NCBI RefSeq assembly: GCF_012720115.1
Contig: NZ_VNWN01000002.1
Location: forward strand, 248,001-312,000
From: Sneathiella chinensis
Lineage (GTDB): Bacteria; Pseudomonadota; Alphaproteobacteria; Sneathiellales; Sneathiellaceae
Length of the DNA: 64,000 nt
Direction: 5' to 3'
Part shown: positions 3,368 to 31,344 of the stretch, piece after piece
Numbering within the stretch: position 1 is the first letter of the stretch
Layout: each line of letters begins with the position of its first letter
The notes under the pieces: model-generated
Seen by the model: only the letters and a program-made list of their open reading frames with translations
Database searches by the model: none
What the model was told of the DNA's origin: nothing
Program-made: the position numbers and the translations under genes

Positions 3368-4272
3368 GAAAACAGGATGGCAGACAGCTTGCTGCGATAT
3401 TCCTGCGAAATCTCGTGCATGGGGCCCAGGGCCTCGAACATTTTCAGCAGTTCCGTCCGGCCGGCTGCCTCGTTCCAGTCCCGGTCCTGCCGGATGATCT
3501 CGATCAGGTGGTCCCCGCCTTCCGCATGGGCACCGCTGCCGATCAGGGCGCGGGCCAGTTCAAGACGGCTTTGCAGGTTATCGGGTTCCGCGGCCACCTT
3601 CTGTTTCAGCGGTTCCAGTTCGCTGTCATCGACGGCGTTTTCTGCAAGGTCCAGTGCGGCCAGCGCGGCCGAGATGGCAGGGTGGGCGCGGTCCGCATCG
3701 GGCAGGGAGCCCAACAGGTCGCGGGCGGCTTCTGTCTCGCCCAGTTTGATATAGAGCCGGGACAGGTGGCCCTTGGCCTCCACATTGTCGGGTTCCAGAT
3801 CCAGAATCTGGGCAAAAGAGGCAATAGCCACTTCCATATTGTCTTCTTCCAGCCCCGCCAGCCCCTGTTCCATCAGTTGCTCAACCGGGGAGGGGCCGAT
3901 GCTGATACCGGCGTTTTTCTCGACAAATTCCTTAAGCTGGCTTTCCGGCAGGGCGCCCATGAAGCCGTCAACCGGCTGGCCGTTCTTGAAGGCAAAAACA
4001 GCAGGGATGGACTGGACCCGCAGGGCCTGCGCAATTTCCGGGTTCTGGTCGATATCGATTTTTACCAGTTCCACGGCGCCTTTTGCGTCATTGACGACTT
4101 TTTCAATGACCGGTCCCAGTTGTTTGCAGGGGCCGCACCACGGGGCCCACAGGTCCACCAGAATTGTTTTCTCGGCGCTTTTGTCGATGACATCCGCCTG
4201 AAAACTCATGGTTGTGCCGTCCTTGACCCAGTTCATCTCTCCGCCTGGAGTGCCTTCAATTACCGTTTCCAT
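3364..4272 (-). CDS. Thioredoxin-TPR co-chaperone, YbbN/CnoX-like
   Basis: The 302-residue protein has an N-terminal thioredoxin fold (about 20-125) with the active site WAPWCGPCKQLGP and cis-Pro region QSIPAVFAFKNGQ, then TPR-like helices (about 140-300; EQGLAGLEEDNMEVAIASF, ALAALDLAENA, ELARALIGSGAHAEGGDHL). This is the architecture of YbbN/CnoX, a holdase that protects proteins under oxidative stress. Unlike E. coli YbbN (SxxC), it keeps both active-site cysteines, as in the Caulobacter protein, so it may also be a disulphide reductase. It is the first gene of the operon and is followed by the overlapping LON-domain gene. Confidence 0.92.
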   Translation of the reverse strand: METVIEGTPGGEMNWVKDGTTMSFQADVIDKSAEKTILVDLWAPWCGPCKQLGPVIEKVVNDAKGAVELVKIDIDQNPEIAQALRVQSIPAVFAFKNGQPVDGFMGALPESQLKEFVEKNAGISIGPSPVEQLMEQGLAGLEEDNMEVAIASFAQILDLEPDNVEAKGHLSRLYIKLGETEAARDLLGSLPDADRAHPAISAALAALDLAENAVDDSELEPLKQKVAAEPDNLQSRLELARALIGSGAHAEGGDHLIEIIRQDRDWNEAAGRTELLKMFEALGPMHEISQEYRSKLSAILFS

Positions 4273-4378
4273 AATCTCACTATACCGTCAAATTGCCAGA
4301 TCACCCGATGGTCCCCGCCGGGAATTCAATGTCCGGAATACCAGTTTCCTTGCCCTTTGTTAAGTCTTCGCCCGGGGG

Positions 4379-16000: not shown

Positions 16001-17922
16001 AAACGGGCAAGGATATCCAGTCCGAGGACTTCACGGTGGCCGGGATCGGCGACATGTCCGGGGACGTGTTCGGGAACGGCATGTTGCTGTCCCGTCATAT
16101 CCGTCTGGTAGCGGCGTTTGATCACCGCAATATCTTTATCGACCCCGACCCGGATGCCGCGGCCAGTTTTGCAGAACGGGAACGCCTGTTCAAACTGCCT
16201 CGCTCATCATGGGAGGATTATGATCCCAAACTGATTTCCGACGGCGGCGGCGTTTTCGACCGCAAGGCGAAATCGGTCAAGCTGACGCCACAAATCCAGA
16301 AACTTCTGGGCTTGAAAGTGCCCAGCCTGACCCCGAACGAGCTGATCTCGGCGGTTCTGAAATCCGAGGTTGACCTTCTGTGGTTCGGCGGGATCGGAAC
16401 CTATATCAAGGGATCGCAGGAAGGCCACGGGGACGTGGGCGACCGCGCCAATGATGCCATTCGTGTCAACGGGGCGGATGTCCGGGCCAAGGTCATTGGT
16501 GAGGGCGGCAACCTTGGCGTGACACAGCGCGGCCGGATTGAATATTCCCTGAAGGGCGGTCGCCTGAACACGGACGCCATCGACAACTCTGCCGGTGTGG
16601 ACTGTTCCGACCATGAGGTGAATATCAAGATCTTGCTGCGGGCAATCCTCGATGACGGGGAAATGACCGGCAAGCAGCGGGACCGCCTGCTGGAGGAAAT
16701 GACCGACGAAGTGGCGCGCCTTGTGCTGCGGGACAACTACCTTCAGACACAGGCCCTGACCACGGCGGAACGCCAGCGCATCGCCAATTTCGAGGAGCAA
16801 ACCCGCTTCATCCATGAACTGGAACGTCAGGGGCGTCTCAACCGCGCCGTTGAATTCCTGCCGGATGAAGAGGAACTGGTCCGCCGTCAGACCTCAGGAC
16901 AGGGTCTGGCCCGTCCCGAAATGTGTGTGTTGCTGGCCTATGCCAAGATGACGCTTTATACGGATATTCTGGAAACATCGTTGCCGGATGATCCGTTCTT
17001 CGAAGCATGGCTGATGAACTACTTCCCGCAGCAGATCAAGGATCAGTATCCGGATTATGTGCGGACCCATCGCCTGCGCCGGGAAATCATCACCACCATC
17101 ATTGTGAACAGTCTGGTCAACCGGGTTGGCACGACCTTTGTCATGCAGATGGTCGAGGAACTGGGTGTGGGCGTGGATGATGTGGCACGAGCCTATGCGG
17201 TGGCGCTGGAAGTGTTCGACCTGCGCGCCCTGTGGGGCCAGATCGAGGCGCTGGACAACAAGGTGAAAACCGATGTTCAGGGTCGCATGATCGATATCAC
17301 GCAGAAACTGGTTCGCCGGGCCACATTGTGGTGTCTGCGTCACTTGCGCTCGCCGCTGGATATTGCGGGCGAGGTGGCAGCACTGGCACCGGATATGCGG
17401 CTTCTGGAAACCAACCTTGAGGACCTGCTGAGTGAGGCCGGTCGTCAGTCCTTCCAGGATCGGGTGGCCTATTTCAAGGATCGGCATGTGCCGGAAACCC
17501 TGGCCCGCCGTATTTCCGCGCTGGCGCCGTTGCGCTCCTCGCTGGATGTGGTTCAGGTGGGCAAGGTGTCGTCCCGGCCCATCGACGAGGTGGCCGAGGT
17601 CTATTTCGCAGTGGGGGCGGATCTCGATCTGGACTGGCTGCGTTATGCCGCCGAGGCGATCGAGCCGGAAAACCACTGGGAACGGCTTGCCGTCACGGCC
17701 ATCATTGATGACCTGTATGGTCAGCAGCGGGCGTTGACAAGTTCTGTCTTCTCCCATGCCGATGGCCATCAAGGCCGGGCAGCCCTGGAATTCTGGGGCA
17801 AGCTGAACGACAATTCGATCCAGCGGTCCCGTGACCTGATGGAGGAATTCCGGGCAACCGGCGGTGTGGATATTGCAAAGCTGGCCTTTGCCAATCGCCA
17901 CTTCCGTTCCATGATCGGTTAG
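13099..17922 (+). CDS. gdhB: NAD-specific glutamate dehydrogenase, large (180-kDa class) type
   Basis: Catabolic enzyme that oxidatively deaminates L-glutamate to 2-oxoglutarate with NAD. The 1607 residues match the large bacterial class known from Caulobacter, Pseudomonas and Streptomyces. The N-terminal half holds ACT-like regulatory segments (HTVIEVVNDDMPFLVDSVTAALN in part; IVTLSSKDKPVVDERELDSR region). The catalytic domain starts near residue 800 with GLRWSDRREDFRTEVLGL, then the substrate-binding VPVGSKGGFVPKR (about 844-856), and the NAD-domain GEGGNLGVTQRGRIEY (about 1134). The long C-terminal helical domain (LARPEMCVLLAYAKMTLY) is also typical. The gene is monocistronic, with a long leader and an intrinsic terminator. 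Confidence 0.98.
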   Translation: MANKQQELKAEKISEILAMVDSRLEKEAAADIKILVEKFYERLAPEDVLNIQSENLYGAVLSHYKFARNRPPQTAKVRVFSPTLDEHGWKTPHTVIEVVNDDMPFLVDSVTAALNQRNLNVHLVIHPILRVERDDKGAHKAFHAGGKKGLEESFMHLEVDEVSDPEILAEIERELEFVLKDVRAAVSDWKPILKQVTDLVASLKKNPPPLEAGEIDEARALLEWMADNHFTFLGYREYNFTVSDQKSSENWEQVAESGLGILRDPMRRIMTGKAEVSPEVRDFLHRPELVIITKANAKSTVHRAVYLDYVGVKKFNDKGEVVGECRFTGLFTSAAYNRIPRDIPYLRRKVENTLKMSGLAKSSHDQKALAHILETYPRDELFQISVEELFEISSKILTLQERPKISAFLRRDRFERFVSALVYVPREKFNTDLRRRFGEILAEMHHGEISAHYSQVGDDAMARIHFIVTLSSKDKPVVDERELDSRLVNAAREWGDDLSDALLERWGEEKALRLKARYGEAFPVGYKDRFNAELALHDIEKLEEVCAAGEMGLNLYRWVEDPDHKVRFKVYSPSTPLTLSDCLPMIENMGLKVLAENPYLIGHGNMDQPVWIHDFELIEPTEMELDLKALKVKFEDTFRRVWQGTSESDGFNRLVMRAGLSWFDVAILRAYAKYLRQTGIAFSQSYMANTLSENPAISVMLVALFKTRFDPDLTEDRDAAFRGWLDEIHTALDGVDSLDDDRILRRFMNLIENTLRTNVYQEGAGDAAKPYFSFKLDSQNIDDLPLPRPHVEIFVYSPRVEGVHLRGGKVARGGLRWSDRREDFRTEVLGLLKAQIVKNTVIVPVGSKGGFVPKRIPLGASREDIQKEGIACYKLFISGLLDLTDNMVGTDVVPPARVVRHDDDDPYLVVAADKGTATFSDIANEVAISYGFWLGDAFASGGAAGYDHKKMGITARGAWESVKRHFRETGKDIQSEDFTVAGIGDMSGDVFGNGMLLSRHIRLVAAFDHRNIFIDPDPDAAASFAERERLFKLPRSSWEDYDPKLISDGGGVFDRKAKSVKLTPQIQKLLGLKVPSLTPNELISAVLKSEVDLLWFGGIGTYIKGSQEGHGDVGDRANDAIRVNGADVRAKVIGEGGNLGVTQRGRIEYSLKGGRLNTDAIDNSAGVDCSDHEVNIKILLRAILDDGEMTGKQRDRLLEEMTDEVARLVLRDNYLQTQALTTAERQRIANFEEQTRFIHELERQGRLNRAVEFLPDEEELVRRQTSGQGLARPEMCVLLAYAKMTLYTDILETSLPDDPFFEAWLMNYFPQQIKDQYPDYVRTHRLRREIITTIIVNSLVNRVGTTFVMQMVEELGVGVDDVARAYAVALEVFDLRALWGQIEALDNKVKTDVQGRMIDITQKLVRRATLWCLRHLRSPLDIAGEVAALAPDMRLLETNLEDLLSEAGRQSFQDRVAYFKDRHVPETLARRISALAPLRSSLDVVQVGKVSSRPIDEVAEVYFAVGADLDLDWLRYAAEAIEPENHWERLAVTAIIDDLYGQQRALTSSVFSHADGHQGRAALEFWGKLNDNSIQRSRDLMEEFRATGGVDIAKLAFANRHFRSMIG

Positions 17923-17949
17923 GCGGCATCTGCCTTGTCATCGAAACAG

Positions 17950-17982
17950 AACCCCCGCCGGTATCGCTGGCGGGGGTTTTTT
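17950..17982 (+). terminator. Intrinsic terminator of gdhB
   Basis: AACCCCCGCC (17950-17959) pairs with GGCGGGGGTT (17969-17978) around a 9-nt loop and runs into T residues to 17982. Confidence 0.88.
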
Positions 17983-18006
17983 AGTGCAGGCGGGGCAGAG
18001 CCGTCT

Positions 18007-18441
18007 TCAGCCAAGGGCAACCAGAAGGGATCCGGCTGCGATCAACCCGACCCCGGTCCATGCCGGACCGGACAGGTGCTCCCCCAGAAGAAATACCCCG
18101 ATCAGCGCGACAAGGACAACGCTCAGCTTGTCGACCGGTGCCACCTGTGAGGCATTCCCAAGCTTCAGGGCGCGGAAATAACACAGCCACGAGGCCCCCG
18201 TGGCAAGGCCGGACAGGATCAGGAACAGCAGGCTTTTCCCGGACAGTTGGTCAAGCGGCTGAAACTGGCCGGTAAAATACAGGATGATCCCCAGCGACAG
18301 AATGACCACAAGGGTCCGCAGAAAAGTGGCATAGTCGGCATTGATATTTTCCACGCCGACCTTGGCGAAGATGGCGGTAAGGGCGGCAAATAACGCGGCG
18401 AGAAAGGCCCAGAACGCCCATGAATTGATCAATTGAGTCAT
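18007..18441 (-). CDS. Single-domain EamA-family membrane transporter
   Basis: The 144-residue membrane protein has about five hydrophobic helices: FWAFLAALFAALTAIFAKVG, TLVVILSLGIILYF, LLFLILSGLATGASWLCYF, VDKLSVVLVALIGVFLLGE and TGVGLIAAGSLLVALG. This is one EamA repeat (the DMT superfamily usually has two), so it probably acts as a dimer, as half-size members do. The motif YFRALKLGNASQVAPVDKLS is family-typical. Substrate unknown. It is convergent with gdhB and divergent from the UMF1-type transporter. Confidence 0.85.
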   Translation of the reverse strand: MTQLINSWAFWAFLAALFAALTAIFAKVGVENINADYATFLRTLVVILSLGIILYFTGQFQPLDQLSGKSLLFLILSGLATGASWLCYFRALKLGNASQVAPVDKLSVVLVALIGVFLLGEHLSGPAWTGVGLIAAGSLLVALG

Positions 18442-29338: not shown

Positions 29339-30343
29339 CTAGTGAAATCCAGCCAGCTTTTCATCCCGGAAGGGACGGGACAGCAGGTGTTCGGCGGCTT
29401 GCCGAACGGATTCCCTGCCGGTAAGGACCGCATGAACGGCCTGACAGATCGGCATTTCAATGTCCAGTGTTTTGGCAAGGCCGTCAAGGGCGGCGGCAGT
29501 GTACACCCCTTCGGTTACACTGTGGCGGCTGGACAGGATTTCCTCAAGCGTTTTTCCCTCGCCAAGGGCGAAGCCCAGCGAATAGTTGCGGGACGCGACC
29601 GATGAACAGGTCAGAACCAGATCGCCAAACCCGGACAGGCCCATCAGGGTTTCGGCGCGGGCACCGAGCCGATCCCCAAGCCGGAGAATTTCCGCCATGC
29701 CGCGGGTAATCAGCGCGGCGCGGGCATTTTCCCCCAGTTTGGCCCCGGCGACAATGCCGCAGGCGATGGCAAGGACATTCTTGGTGGCGCCGCCAAGCTG
29801 GGCCCCGATCACATCATCGGTCAGGTAGGGCCGGAAGGTGGCATGCCCGATGGCCTTGACGATGCGGGTGCCCCATTTCTGATCCTGAATGGCGAGGGTG
29901 GTGGCAGCGGGTAGTCCTTTTGCCACTTCATGGGCGAAATTGGGGCCGGACAGGATGCCATAAGGCTGGCCCGGCAGGACTTCCTCGACCATTTCGCTGA
30001 GAAGTTTTCCCGTGCTTTGCTCGATCCCCTTGGCGCAAAGGACAAGGGCGGTGTCCTTTGAAAGAAAACCGGCCATGCTTTCAAGCACGGTGCGTAAATG
30101 CTGGGCCGGAATGACCGCCAGAATGATGTCGGCACGGCAGACCGCTTCAAGATCGGAAGTGGGGTCCAGAGTGTCGGGTAACGGGATATCGGGAAGGTAT
30201 TTGCTGTTCTGACGCAGGCGCCGAATGTCGGCGGCCAGGGCCGGGTCCCGACACCAGAGCTGGACCGAGGGGGCGGTCTGGGCCACGGATGCGGCAAGAG
30301 CGGTTCCCCACGCACCGGCCCCTATTACACTCACTTTATCCAT
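29339..30343 (-). CDS. gpsA: NAD(P)H-dependent glycerol-3-phosphate dehydrogenase
   Basis: Makes sn-glycerol-3-phosphate from dihydroxyacetone phosphate for phospholipid synthesis. The 334 residues begin with the Rossmann motif VIGAGAWGTALAASVA and contain SGPNFAHEVAKGLPAA (substrate pocket), the catalytic Lys in GGATKNVLAIACGIVAGAK and the domain end MEMPICQAVHAVL-like stretch. A C-terminal AAEHLLSRP is family-typical. Upstream lies the candidate sRNA, whose terminator separates gpsA from rpiA transcription. In many alphaproteobacteria gpsA follows tsaD directly; here rpiA and the sRNA intervene. Confidence 0.97.
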   Translation of the reverse strand: MDKVSVIGAGAWGTALAASVAQTAPSVQLWCRDPALAADIRRLRQNSKYLPDIPLPDTLDPTSDLEAVCRADIILAVIPAQHLRTVLESMAGFLSKDTALVLCAKGIEQSTGKLLSEMVEEVLPGQPYGILSGPNFAHEVAKGLPAATTLAIQDQKWGTRIVKAIGHATFRPYLTDDVIGAQLGGATKNVLAIACGIVAGAKLGENARAALITRGMAEILRLGDRLGARAETLMGLSGFGDLVLTCSSVASRNYSLGFALGEGKTLEEILSSRHSVTEGVYTAAALDGLAKTLDIEMPICQAVHAVLTGRESVRQAAEHLLSRPFRDEKLAGFH

Positions 30344-30441: not shown

Positions 30442-30472
30442 AAAAAAGGCCCCCTGTGGGATGCAGGGGGCC
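30442..30472 (-). terminator. Strong intrinsic terminator, end of the candidate sRNA
   Basis: On the minus strand GGCCCCCTG pairs perfectly with CAGGGGGCC (30464-30472 with 30448-30456), a 9-bp stem with a 7-nt loop, followed by six T (30447-30442). It does not belong to rpiA, which has its own terminator at 30587-30612. Confidence 0.88.
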
Positions 30473-30512
30473 AGAAGTCTGAGCTAGAGAGGATAAGCAT
30501 GGCTTATTCTCA
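30442..30512 (-). ncRNA. Candidate small regulatory RNA, about 70 nt
   Basis: A self-contained transcription unit lies in the gpsA-rpiA spacer. A promoter at 30519-30546 would start RNA near 30512. The RNA begins with a hairpin (ATAAGC/GCTTAT with loop CAT, at 30493-30507), continues with a single-stranded CU-rich stretch (CCTCTCTAGCTCAGACTTCT, about 30492-30473), and ends in the terminator stem at 30472-30448 with six U. No ORF is present. The layout (5' hairpin, pyrimidine-rich anti-Shine-Dalgarno-like seed, Hfq-type terminator) is that of a trans-acting sRNA. It is inferred only from sequence; a leader of gpsA is the alternative, but the strong terminator would then be an attenuator. Confidence 0.5.
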
Positions 30513-30518
30513 TCGCCG

Positions 30519-30563
30519 ATTATAGGCAGGTATTTCTTAATTGCAAATGATTATTAATTGCGA
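30519..30563 (-). promoter_or_regulatory. sRNA promoter with overlapping Fur-like dyad
   Basis: On the minus strand the -35 TTGCAA (30546-30541) and the consensus -10 TATAAT (30524-30519) are separated by 16 bp. Covering the -35 and extending upstream, 30541-30563 is an AT-rich imperfect dyad that contains AATGATTATTAATTGC, resembling Fur-type sites of repeated NAT(A/T)AT units. Repression by an iron regulator at this place would be sterically simple. The -10/-35 pair is solid; the Fur assignment is inference. Confidence 0.5.
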
Positions 30564-30586
30564 AGTGAATTTTTTCAGGCAGGCAC

Positions 30587-30612
30587 AAAAAAAGCCCCGG
30601 CGAACCGGGGCT
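30587..30612 (-). terminator. Intrinsic terminator of the tsaD-rpiA transcript
   Basis: On the minus strand AGCCCCGG (30612-30605) pairs with CCGGGGCT (30600-30593) around a 4-nt loop and is followed by seven T (30593-30587). It lies 58 bp after the rpiA stop. Confidence 0.9.
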
Positions 30613-30669
30613 TCCTTGATGTACAGACGGGGGTTGGGCTGTCCGTCTGGTGTTCCGGGATTTCGGGGA

Positions 30670-31344
30670 TCAACCTCCGAAGGTCTTGACCCCGTCATCG
30701 GTACCAATCAGGACCAGATCGGCATAATCGATGAACAGGCCATGCTCGACCACACCGGGGGTGGTGCTGAGGGTCAGGGCCAGTTCTTCCGGGTCGTCAA
30801 TTTCGCCAAAGGCACAGTCAATGATCTGGTTGCCTTCATCGGTCAGGAACGGCTGCCCGTCTTTCATGCGGATTTCCGGGGTGGAGCCAAGGGCTTCCAT
30901 CTTGGGCAGCAGGGCCCCGGCGGCGAAGGGAATAACCTCGACCGGCAGTTTGAAGGCGCCAAGCTTGCCGACCATCTTCTTGTTTTCCGCGATGACGATC
31001 ATGCGATCCGAGAGGGAGGCAACGATCTTTTCCCGAAGGTGGGCACCGCCGCCGCCCTTGATCAGGCGCTTTTCCGGGTCCACTTCGTCGGTGCCGTCAA
31101 TGGTCAGGTCGATGACGGAAACCTCATCCAGTCCGACAACGCGGATACCAAGGGCCTCTGCCTGCCGGGCTGTCGCCTCAGAGGTTGGAACAGCAATAAT
31201 ATCCAGTCCGTTCTTGACCCGCTCGCCAACAAGGTCGACCATCTTGGCGGCAGTAGAGCCGGTTCCAAGGCCGACGACCATGCCGTCCTTGATATGCTCA
31301 ACGGCGGCTTTGGCGGCTGCCAGTTTCTGTTCATCTTCTGTCAT
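30670..31344 (-). CDS. rpiA: Ribose-5-phosphate isomerase A
   Basis: Interconverts ribose-5-phosphate and ribulose-5-phosphate. I start it at the ATG at 31342-31344 (MTEDEQKLAAAKAAVEHI), giving 224 residues; the frame upstream overlaps tsaD and is not conserved-looking. Motifs include MVVGLGTGSTAAKMV (phosphate loop), DLTIDGTDEVDP (catalytic Asp), LIKGGGGAHLREKIV and a C-terminal GVVEHGLFI. It follows tsaD by 16 bp and ends at its own terminator. With rpe it gives the window both pentose-phosphate isomerisation enzymes. Confidence 0.97.
   Translation of the reverse strand: MTEDEQKLAAAKAAVEHIKDGMVVGLGTGSTAAKMVDLVGERVKNGLDIIAVPTSEATARQAEALGIRVVGLDEVSVIDLTIDGTDEVDPEKRLIKGGGGAHLREKIVASLSDRMIVIAENKKMVGKLGAFKLPVEVIPFAAGALLPKMEALGSTPEIRMKDGQPFLTDEGNQIIDCAFGEIDDPEELALTLSTTPGVVEHGLFIDYADLVLIGTDDGVKTFGG

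Follow-up and report, generated by a model that had tools for sequence, protein, structure and literature searches.

A conserved small RNA gene between rpiA and gpsA in Sneathiella, probably Fur-repressed and iron-sparing

On the minus strand of the gap between rpiA and gpsA, in a 64,000-nt window of the Sneathiella chinensis genome (the whole stretch of DNA analysed), lies a compact sRNA gene composed of a promoter, an RNA of about 72 nt and a terminator. Read along that strand, the terminator hairpin of rpiA is followed by a 23-bp dyad, the promoter, a 5' hairpin, a CU-rich stretch and an intrinsic terminator, with the following coordinates.

30670..31344, minus strand: rpiA, the upstream neighbour, synteny kept
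30588..30617 (approximate), minus strand: rpiA's own terminator hairpin (fold, z -3.84)
30542..30564, minus strand: Fur-box-like operator TTCGCAATTAATAATCATTTGCA, 23 bp, over the -35 (conservation; pattern and matrix scans)
30541..30546, minus strand: -35 hexamer TTGCAA
30519..30524, minus strand: -10 hexamer TATAAT
30442..30513, minus strand: sRNA gene of ~72 nt, its 5' end deduced from the promoter (covariance model without the window copy; fold)
30489..30511, minus strand: 5' hairpin GAG.AUAAGC/GCUUAU.CUC (fold, alignment)
30481..30492, minus strand: seed CCUCUCUAGCUC (invariant in 10 aligned copies; complement at the sdhC, ctaD and gltD starts)
30442..30472, minus strand: intrinsic terminator, 9-bp stem plus six T (scan, fold, paired changes)
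29339..30343, minus strand: gpsA, the downstream neighbour, synteny kept

The first-pass annotation had read a promoter TTGCAA-N16-TATAAT, a hairpin, a CU-rich stretch and a 9-bp terminator from the letters, and all four were found as read. The promoter, with its 16-nt spacer and 10 of 12 matches, is the best within a 4-kb region, in which the scan returned 5 promoter-like rows against 1.7 in shuffles; the start site at about 30513-30511 was derived solely from the -10 spacing. Within the 5' hairpin, the ATAAGC/GCTTAT part occupies 30507-30493 and the GAG/CUC pairs are added by the minimum free energy (MFE) fold, while the terminator consists of a stem at 30472-30448 and TTTTTT at 30447-30442. 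The whole RNA folds with an MFE of -28.3 (z -3.7), and none of 200 dinucleotide shuffles was as stable. The separate terminator claimed for rpiA was confirmed by folding as the hairpin at about 30617-30588, which is missing from a simple terminator scan. A dyad had also been placed over the -35 at 30541-30563; its position over the -35 holds, but the conserved 23 bp run from 30564 to 30542, one base off. At gathering level, Rfam matched two tRNAs only in the whole window and left the sRNA locus unmatched.

To follow the gene beyond the window, we combined blastn with covariance models. Among 60 relatives, blastn found copies in eight other Sneathiella genomes, and a covariance model built from nine relatives, with the window sequence left out, recognised the window copy with a score of 69 bits (E 5.5e-15). 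Strong matches to the model occurred at 10 loci in 9 of 24 Sneathiella genomes. A class-wide draw of 387 genomes gave strong matches in four, all Sneathiella; 15 genomes had any match, 11 of them outside Sneathiella, the best of these at 35.7 bits. Because the class search was run with Infernal's stricter filters, weak relatives may be missed. We inspected weak matches in 6 of the 11 non-Sneathiella genomes and three within the genus, and none had the core or the operator. The plasmid collection yielded no sRNA match. A pattern scan of named genomes recovered six stretches, including Sneathiella glossodoripedis (L050) and Sneathiella or Sneathiellales MAGs, two of them with tandem copies.

The 22-nt core GCTTATCCTCTCTAGCTCAGAC is invariant in ten aligned copies, whereas the loop that precedes it varies by one base. 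Across nine relatives, five predicted pairs of the terminator stem are changed on both sides and hence covary; the pairs of the 5' hairpin are invariant in the 9 aligned relatives, so that covariation has nothing to test there. The earlier proposal of an independent sRNA unit is borne out by its conservation as a unit in the same place in nine genomes (rpiA being off the contig in one), and conservation extends beyond the terminator to the promoter, operator, hairpin and seed. Judged by these comparisons, the sRNA is a real conserved gene. Tandem duplicates occur in G004 (L002, 25-302) and in Sneathiellales MAG.259 (L049, ~4088-4279); both L049 copies and the second G004 copy have an operator of their own, and for the first G004 copy the contig stops short of the upstream DNA.

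The first-pass annotation had further proposed that an exact CCUCUCU seed blocks Shine-Dalgarno (SD) sites. This exact seed fared poorly: TAGAGAGGA near a start codon gave 16 matches in nine genomes, compared with 24 for the reversed-pattern control. We instead place the working seed at CUCUCUAGCUC, slightly 3' of CCUCUCU, and let it extend 3' past the anti-SD run because the conserved candidate sites pair with CUCUCUAGCU or CUCUAGCUC. The predicted fold leaves little of this run's CUC unpaired. The more general claim, that the RNA acts at Shine-Dalgarno regions in the manner of RyhB and NrrF, gains support from conserved complementarity at the starts of three iron-enzyme mRNAs, those of sdhC, ctaD and gltD.

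Classical RyhB-type targets were examined first, and the clearest of the predicted sites belongs to sdhC, where AGCTAGAGAG, the exact complement of CUCUCUAGCU (30491-30482), stands directly before the start codon. The match is 10 nt long in 7 of the 9 genomes that carry the sRNA, 9 nt in G011 and 11 nt with one G-U pair in G004. All 11 sister leaders lack it and have GCGAGAAAGA or GCGAGGAAGA, or a close variant, at this position; in one of them, that of G015, 8 nt located further upstream match the hairpin arm. Predicted duplexes with the long sdhC leader range from -24.6 to -27.8 kcal/mol in sRNA-carrying genomes and from -9.9 to -24.0 in sister genomes, and the start region alone gives -19.0 in the window genome versus -6.5 in two sister genomes. 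Within the clade, the site forms a conserved block with variable flanks.

We then searched ten genomes for RGYTAGAGAG N2-12 ATG, a pattern derived from the sdhC site, and obtained 36 rows versus 18 for the reversed pattern. These 36 comprise 10 sdhC rows (9 genomes), 7 ctaD rows, 2 from the sRNA's own antisense and 17 others, 6 of which, all in G005, were left unassigned to a locus. As the pattern came from the sdhC site, the ctaD matches alone are new. The ctaD site reads GGCTAGAGAG or GGTTAGAGAG in 7 of the 9 sRNA-carrying genomes, its leader not being located in G011 and G004. At gltD, 5 of 5 genomes examined show an unbroken run of about 10-12 pairs (a hand count that includes G-U), and the pairing is kept through substitutions that swap Watson-Crick for wobble pairs. 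In G004 only, a TonB-receptor gene (L178, G004:C59) has GGTTAGAGAG 4 nt before its start.

Three further candidates were compared between genomes with and without the sRNA. A rubrerythrin gene shows 6-9 nt of complementarity before its start in G000, G005, G009 and G014 and none in G011, G004 and G023 (present in 4 of 7 sRNA-carrying genomes), while none of 11 genomes lacking the sRNA has 6 nt or more. For leuC, the match is 7 nt in eight sRNA-carrying genomes and 10 nt in G005; we regard it as only suggestive, because the three sister genomes compared likewise carry 7 complementary nt (GAGGATA), in another register. Upstream of the acnA start, CTGAGC or TCTGAGC occurs in 5 of 6 genomes with the sRNA and in 0 of 3 without. 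The contrast with the sister clade is carried by sdhC, for which 11 leaders were compared; the data for rubrerythrin (11), leuC (3) and acnA (3) are scarcer or less strong. One acnA-type gene (G009:C12:121946-123408) lies in two pieces in separate frames, perhaps through a sequencing error or a break.

Seed pairing was also ranked over 435 non-overlapping ortholog pairs from ~0.8 Mb each of the window genome (G000) and G005, of which 337 had a common start codon; the scan covers about a fifth of the two genomes. Contig C18 had been chosen partly because of its sdh, leuC and acnA genes. The ctaD stretch was included deliberately, once the pattern search had pointed to this gene; gltD and rubrerythrin were not preselected. 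Ranked by contiguous seed pairing, sdhC came first, followed by leuC, gltD, ctaD, a solute-binding protein, rubrerythrin and sdhB, with sdhC and sdhB counting as one operon. Since 2 of 30 shuffled seeds equalled the real best score, we place weight on which genes rank high. Iron-cofactor proteins make up 6 of the top 10, versus 3 (gltD, leuC and acnA) in a random draw of 30 from the 337, in which ferrochelatase was not counted as an iron-cofactor protein; 26 of the 30 were scanned afresh (two without a Pfam match) and four were already known. The fifth-ranked gene, an extracellular solute-binding protein with AGAGAGGA at its ribosome-binding site (G000:C12:389311, G005:C1:403665), is no iron enzyme. 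A ranking by duplex energy, topped by atpG and then gltD, missed sdhC, leuC and ctaD because of poor gene calling and was replaced by the contiguous-pairing scan.

An alternative is that the RNA is a paralogue of alphaR8 (suhB/MmgR/Sis), an anti-SD sRNA of the type common in Alphaproteobacteria, whose targets range broadly over carbon and transport functions, and that it stands under an iron promoter by chance. With alphaR8, suhB, MmgR and SisA-D (RF00519) it shares a 5' hairpin, an anti-SD-like CU stretch (UCCUCnCU), an ACUU motif and a strong terminator; the RF00519 model gives a full-length alignment with a score of 28.4 bits; and alphaR8 RNAs can exist as several differently regulated copies, according to a passage in PMC12559287. 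However, the RF00519 cut-off of 41 is reached neither by the window copy (28.4) nor by the two relatives listed among eight (31.6 and 27.7), and a proper RF00519 copy lies elsewhere in the genome (47.4 bits, C12:686610). Furthermore, the 10-mer UUUCCUCCCU, described as the alphaR8 core in the same passage (PMC12559287), is absent and the sRNA has UUAUCCUCUCU instead, while the conserved target sites use the UAGCUC part of the seed, which alphaR8 lacks. We consider this alternative unlikely. Together with its Fur-type promoter, these differences make a sequence family of its own, with an alphaR8-like layout and scores below the RF00519 cut-off, the best reading of the sRNA; given the layout and the weak full-length alignment, it may share ancestry with alphaR8.

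A TTGCWRTTAAKAATGANTTGCA-like sequence covers the -35 of every copy for which upstream DNA is available. Scanning the whole genome of the window with an IUPAC pattern of this operator (up to 3 mismatches) gave 3 matches, compared with 0 for the reversed control. The first is the sRNA promoter. The second is ~300 bp upstream of a TonB-receptor gene with a Plug domain; a divergent AMP-ligase-type gene is closer to it (~85 bp). The third lies 60 bp before a BPD_transp_1 permease, which we read as one of the iron type. In other Sneathiella, operator-like sequences precede Plug-domain receptors (L014, L017), a multicopper oxidase / DUF2061 pair (L018) and a gene without a Pfam match (L016). Several repeated Fur-like dyads are found upstream of the TonB-receptor gene in L017 (~1470-1560, G004:C185).

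A weight matrix was trained on sRNA promoters with those of G000 and G005 left out and was run over 1.58 Mb of these two genomes, overlaps being counted twice. Its top two sites were both sRNA promoters (36.3 and 30.1 bits), followed by a fecI-like sigma gene (24.9), the G000 TonB-receptor site (22.2), a further site within the window promoter that overlaps the first, and a fecA-like receptor (19.1); the last adjoins the sigma gene and scores level with two unremarkable sites. The names fecI and fecA were assigned by eye. In the G005 locus L235 (~16390-18130; G005:C1:410892-412609), Fur-like boxes stand before both genes of the fecI/fecA-like pair.

Three proteins of the Fur superfamily are encoded in the window genome, and the NCBIfam models that fit them best are those for Fur, IrrA and Zur; IrrA alone passes its curated cut-off, the scan having covered domain stretches only. 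Fur is described as the main iron regulator of basal alphaproteobacterial orders in a section of PMC3751524. Based on the motif sites, the Fur-type protein and this published role, we read the dyad over the -35 as a putative Fur box. The Fur-type operator of the first-pass annotation is thereby supported at the sequence level, and the sRNA promoter lies under it. The operator could instead belong to Irr, Zur or a manganese regulator, and the RNA would then answer another signal; Irr-type and Zur-type proteins are indeed also encoded in the genome. We judge this quite unlikely, as the same motif precedes TonB receptors, the fecI-like sigma gene and the iron-ABC-type permease, and the predicted targets of the sRNA are iron enzymes. 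The Irr box (ICE) has a different sequence, which would likewise speak against this alternative.

In eight genomes rpiA and gpsA flank the sRNA and all three point the same way; the contig of the ninth, G004, includes gpsA but does not extend to rpiA. A GNAT-type gene intervenes between rpiA and the sRNA in 4 of the 9 genomes, and a tetR-type gene on the opposite strand intervenes between the sRNA and gpsA in 6 of the 9, these labels being Pfam-checked in G005 only. In those six genomes the tetR-type gene (L068 4416-5045, L071 3801-4463, and others) runs towards the sRNA, and in G005 and G014 its open frame overlaps the 3' part of the sRNA. Given its position between rpiA and gpsA on their strand, the sequence might be no separate sRNA gene at all: it could belong to rpiA as its 3' end or an attenuator, serve as a gpsA leader or be a small coding gene. 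This is very improbable in view of its own promoter and operator, the separate rpiA terminator hairpin, the intervening genes in relatives and the tandem copies, and a coding gene is rejected since the 22-nt core is fixed at every position, unlike coding sequence.

We found rpiA in 13 genomes without a strong sRNA match. In 9 of these, 17 to 147 nt separate the rpiA stop from the gpsA motif; in the other 4, another gene comes next or the gpsA motif was not found in the piece examined. In a quick tree of sdhC-D-A (built without G012, G016 and G020, which gave no sdhC match), the 9 genomes with the sRNA are split from 11 without it by one branch with full SH-aLRT support. No sRNA was found in G006, an assembly that is 66% complete and gave no rpiA match; this genome falls within the sRNA-carrying clade, and its sdhC start has GAGCTAGAGAG. 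The distribution fits a single gain or a single loss of the sRNA. Because the sRNA-carrying genomes form one clade, the presence of the sRNA and of the sdhC site count as one joint event rather than many.

Taken together, we interpret the gene as a Fur-repressed, RyhB-like iron-sparing sRNA, a reading to which we assign a probability of roughly 0.8. When iron is plentiful, iron-loaded Fur would occupy the dyad over the -35 and keep the gene off; when iron is scarce, the promoter would fire and a terminator-ended RNA of ~72 nt would accumulate. The segment CUCUCUAGCU(C) is predicted to pair with the ribosome-binding sites of the sdhC, ctaD and gltD mRNAs and, less certainly, with those of leuC, acnA and rubrerythrin. 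Here, sdhC encodes a part of succinate dehydrogenase, ctaD subunit I of the aa3 oxidase, and gltD the Fe-S subunit of glutamate synthase. Such pairing would block translation and probably promote decay of the mRNAs, Hfq dependence being assumed, and less iron would then be spent on dispensable haem and Fe-S enzymes. The sRNA is thus probably switched on under iron scarcity to block iron-hungry respiratory enzymes.

Comparable Fur- or iron-regulated iron-sparing sRNAs are RyhB of E. coli, NrrF of Neisseria, PrrF1/2 of Pseudomonas, FsrA of Bacillus and IsrR of Staphylococcus. RyhB, NrrF, PrrF and FsrA appear as models of Fur-regulated sRNAs in sections of PMC11005374 and PMC3751524. The Sneathiella sRNA resembles all five in its Fur-type operator and in predicted pairing at iron-enzyme starts that include sdhC, and it resembles PrrF1/2 in its tandem copies, here in two genomes. 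It differs from the RyhB-type models in its seed, in the prominence of its ctaD and gltD sites and in the bacterial class that carries it, and it is known here from sequence alone. The Rfam RyhB model matched the window neither at its gathering score nor among 14 low-threshold matches. An alphaproteobacterial sRNA tied to iron starvation, RusT of Caulobacter crescentus, is described in part of PMC11005374 as NtrYX-controlled, with no Fur consensus in its promoter and with many targets among outer-membrane transporters. A passage of PMC3751524 speculates that a Fur-repressed region near CC0681-CC0682 may yield two sRNAs, which is the nearest prior claim we found. In the open-licence literature, at the heads of long result lists, we found no Fur-repressed iron-sparing sRNA in Alphaproteobacteria and no paper that combines Sneathiella with small RNA. 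As far as found in the literature of this kind, an iron-sparing Fur sRNA would be new for the Alphaproteobacteria.

If this reading is correct, at least one alphaproteobacterial lineage has its own Fur-sRNA arm for iron sparing. The two sister clades contrast not only in having or lacking the sRNA but also on the mRNA side, at sdhC, and since the genus has cultivated strains, the independent evolution of RyhB-like control becomes directly testable. It is possible, though doubtful, that the gene arose by duplication of a housekeeping alphaR8-type sRNA in the ancestor of one Sneathiella clade, and that it gained a Fur operator and the new UAGCUC seed extension while the sdhC leader changed to match; an iron-sparing circuit would then have been made from a non-iron sRNA.

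The proper suhB/alphaR8 sRNA of the window genome (L076, G000:C12:686610-686686, minus strand) has an inverted repeat upstream; the same genome has two further RF00519 matches with lower scores, at C14:148500 and C14:215232. In G016:C9, G004:C24, G007:C146 and G021:C2, two or three RF00519-like matches lie ~200-320 bp apart; these clusters are possibly tandem alphaR8-type sRNAs.
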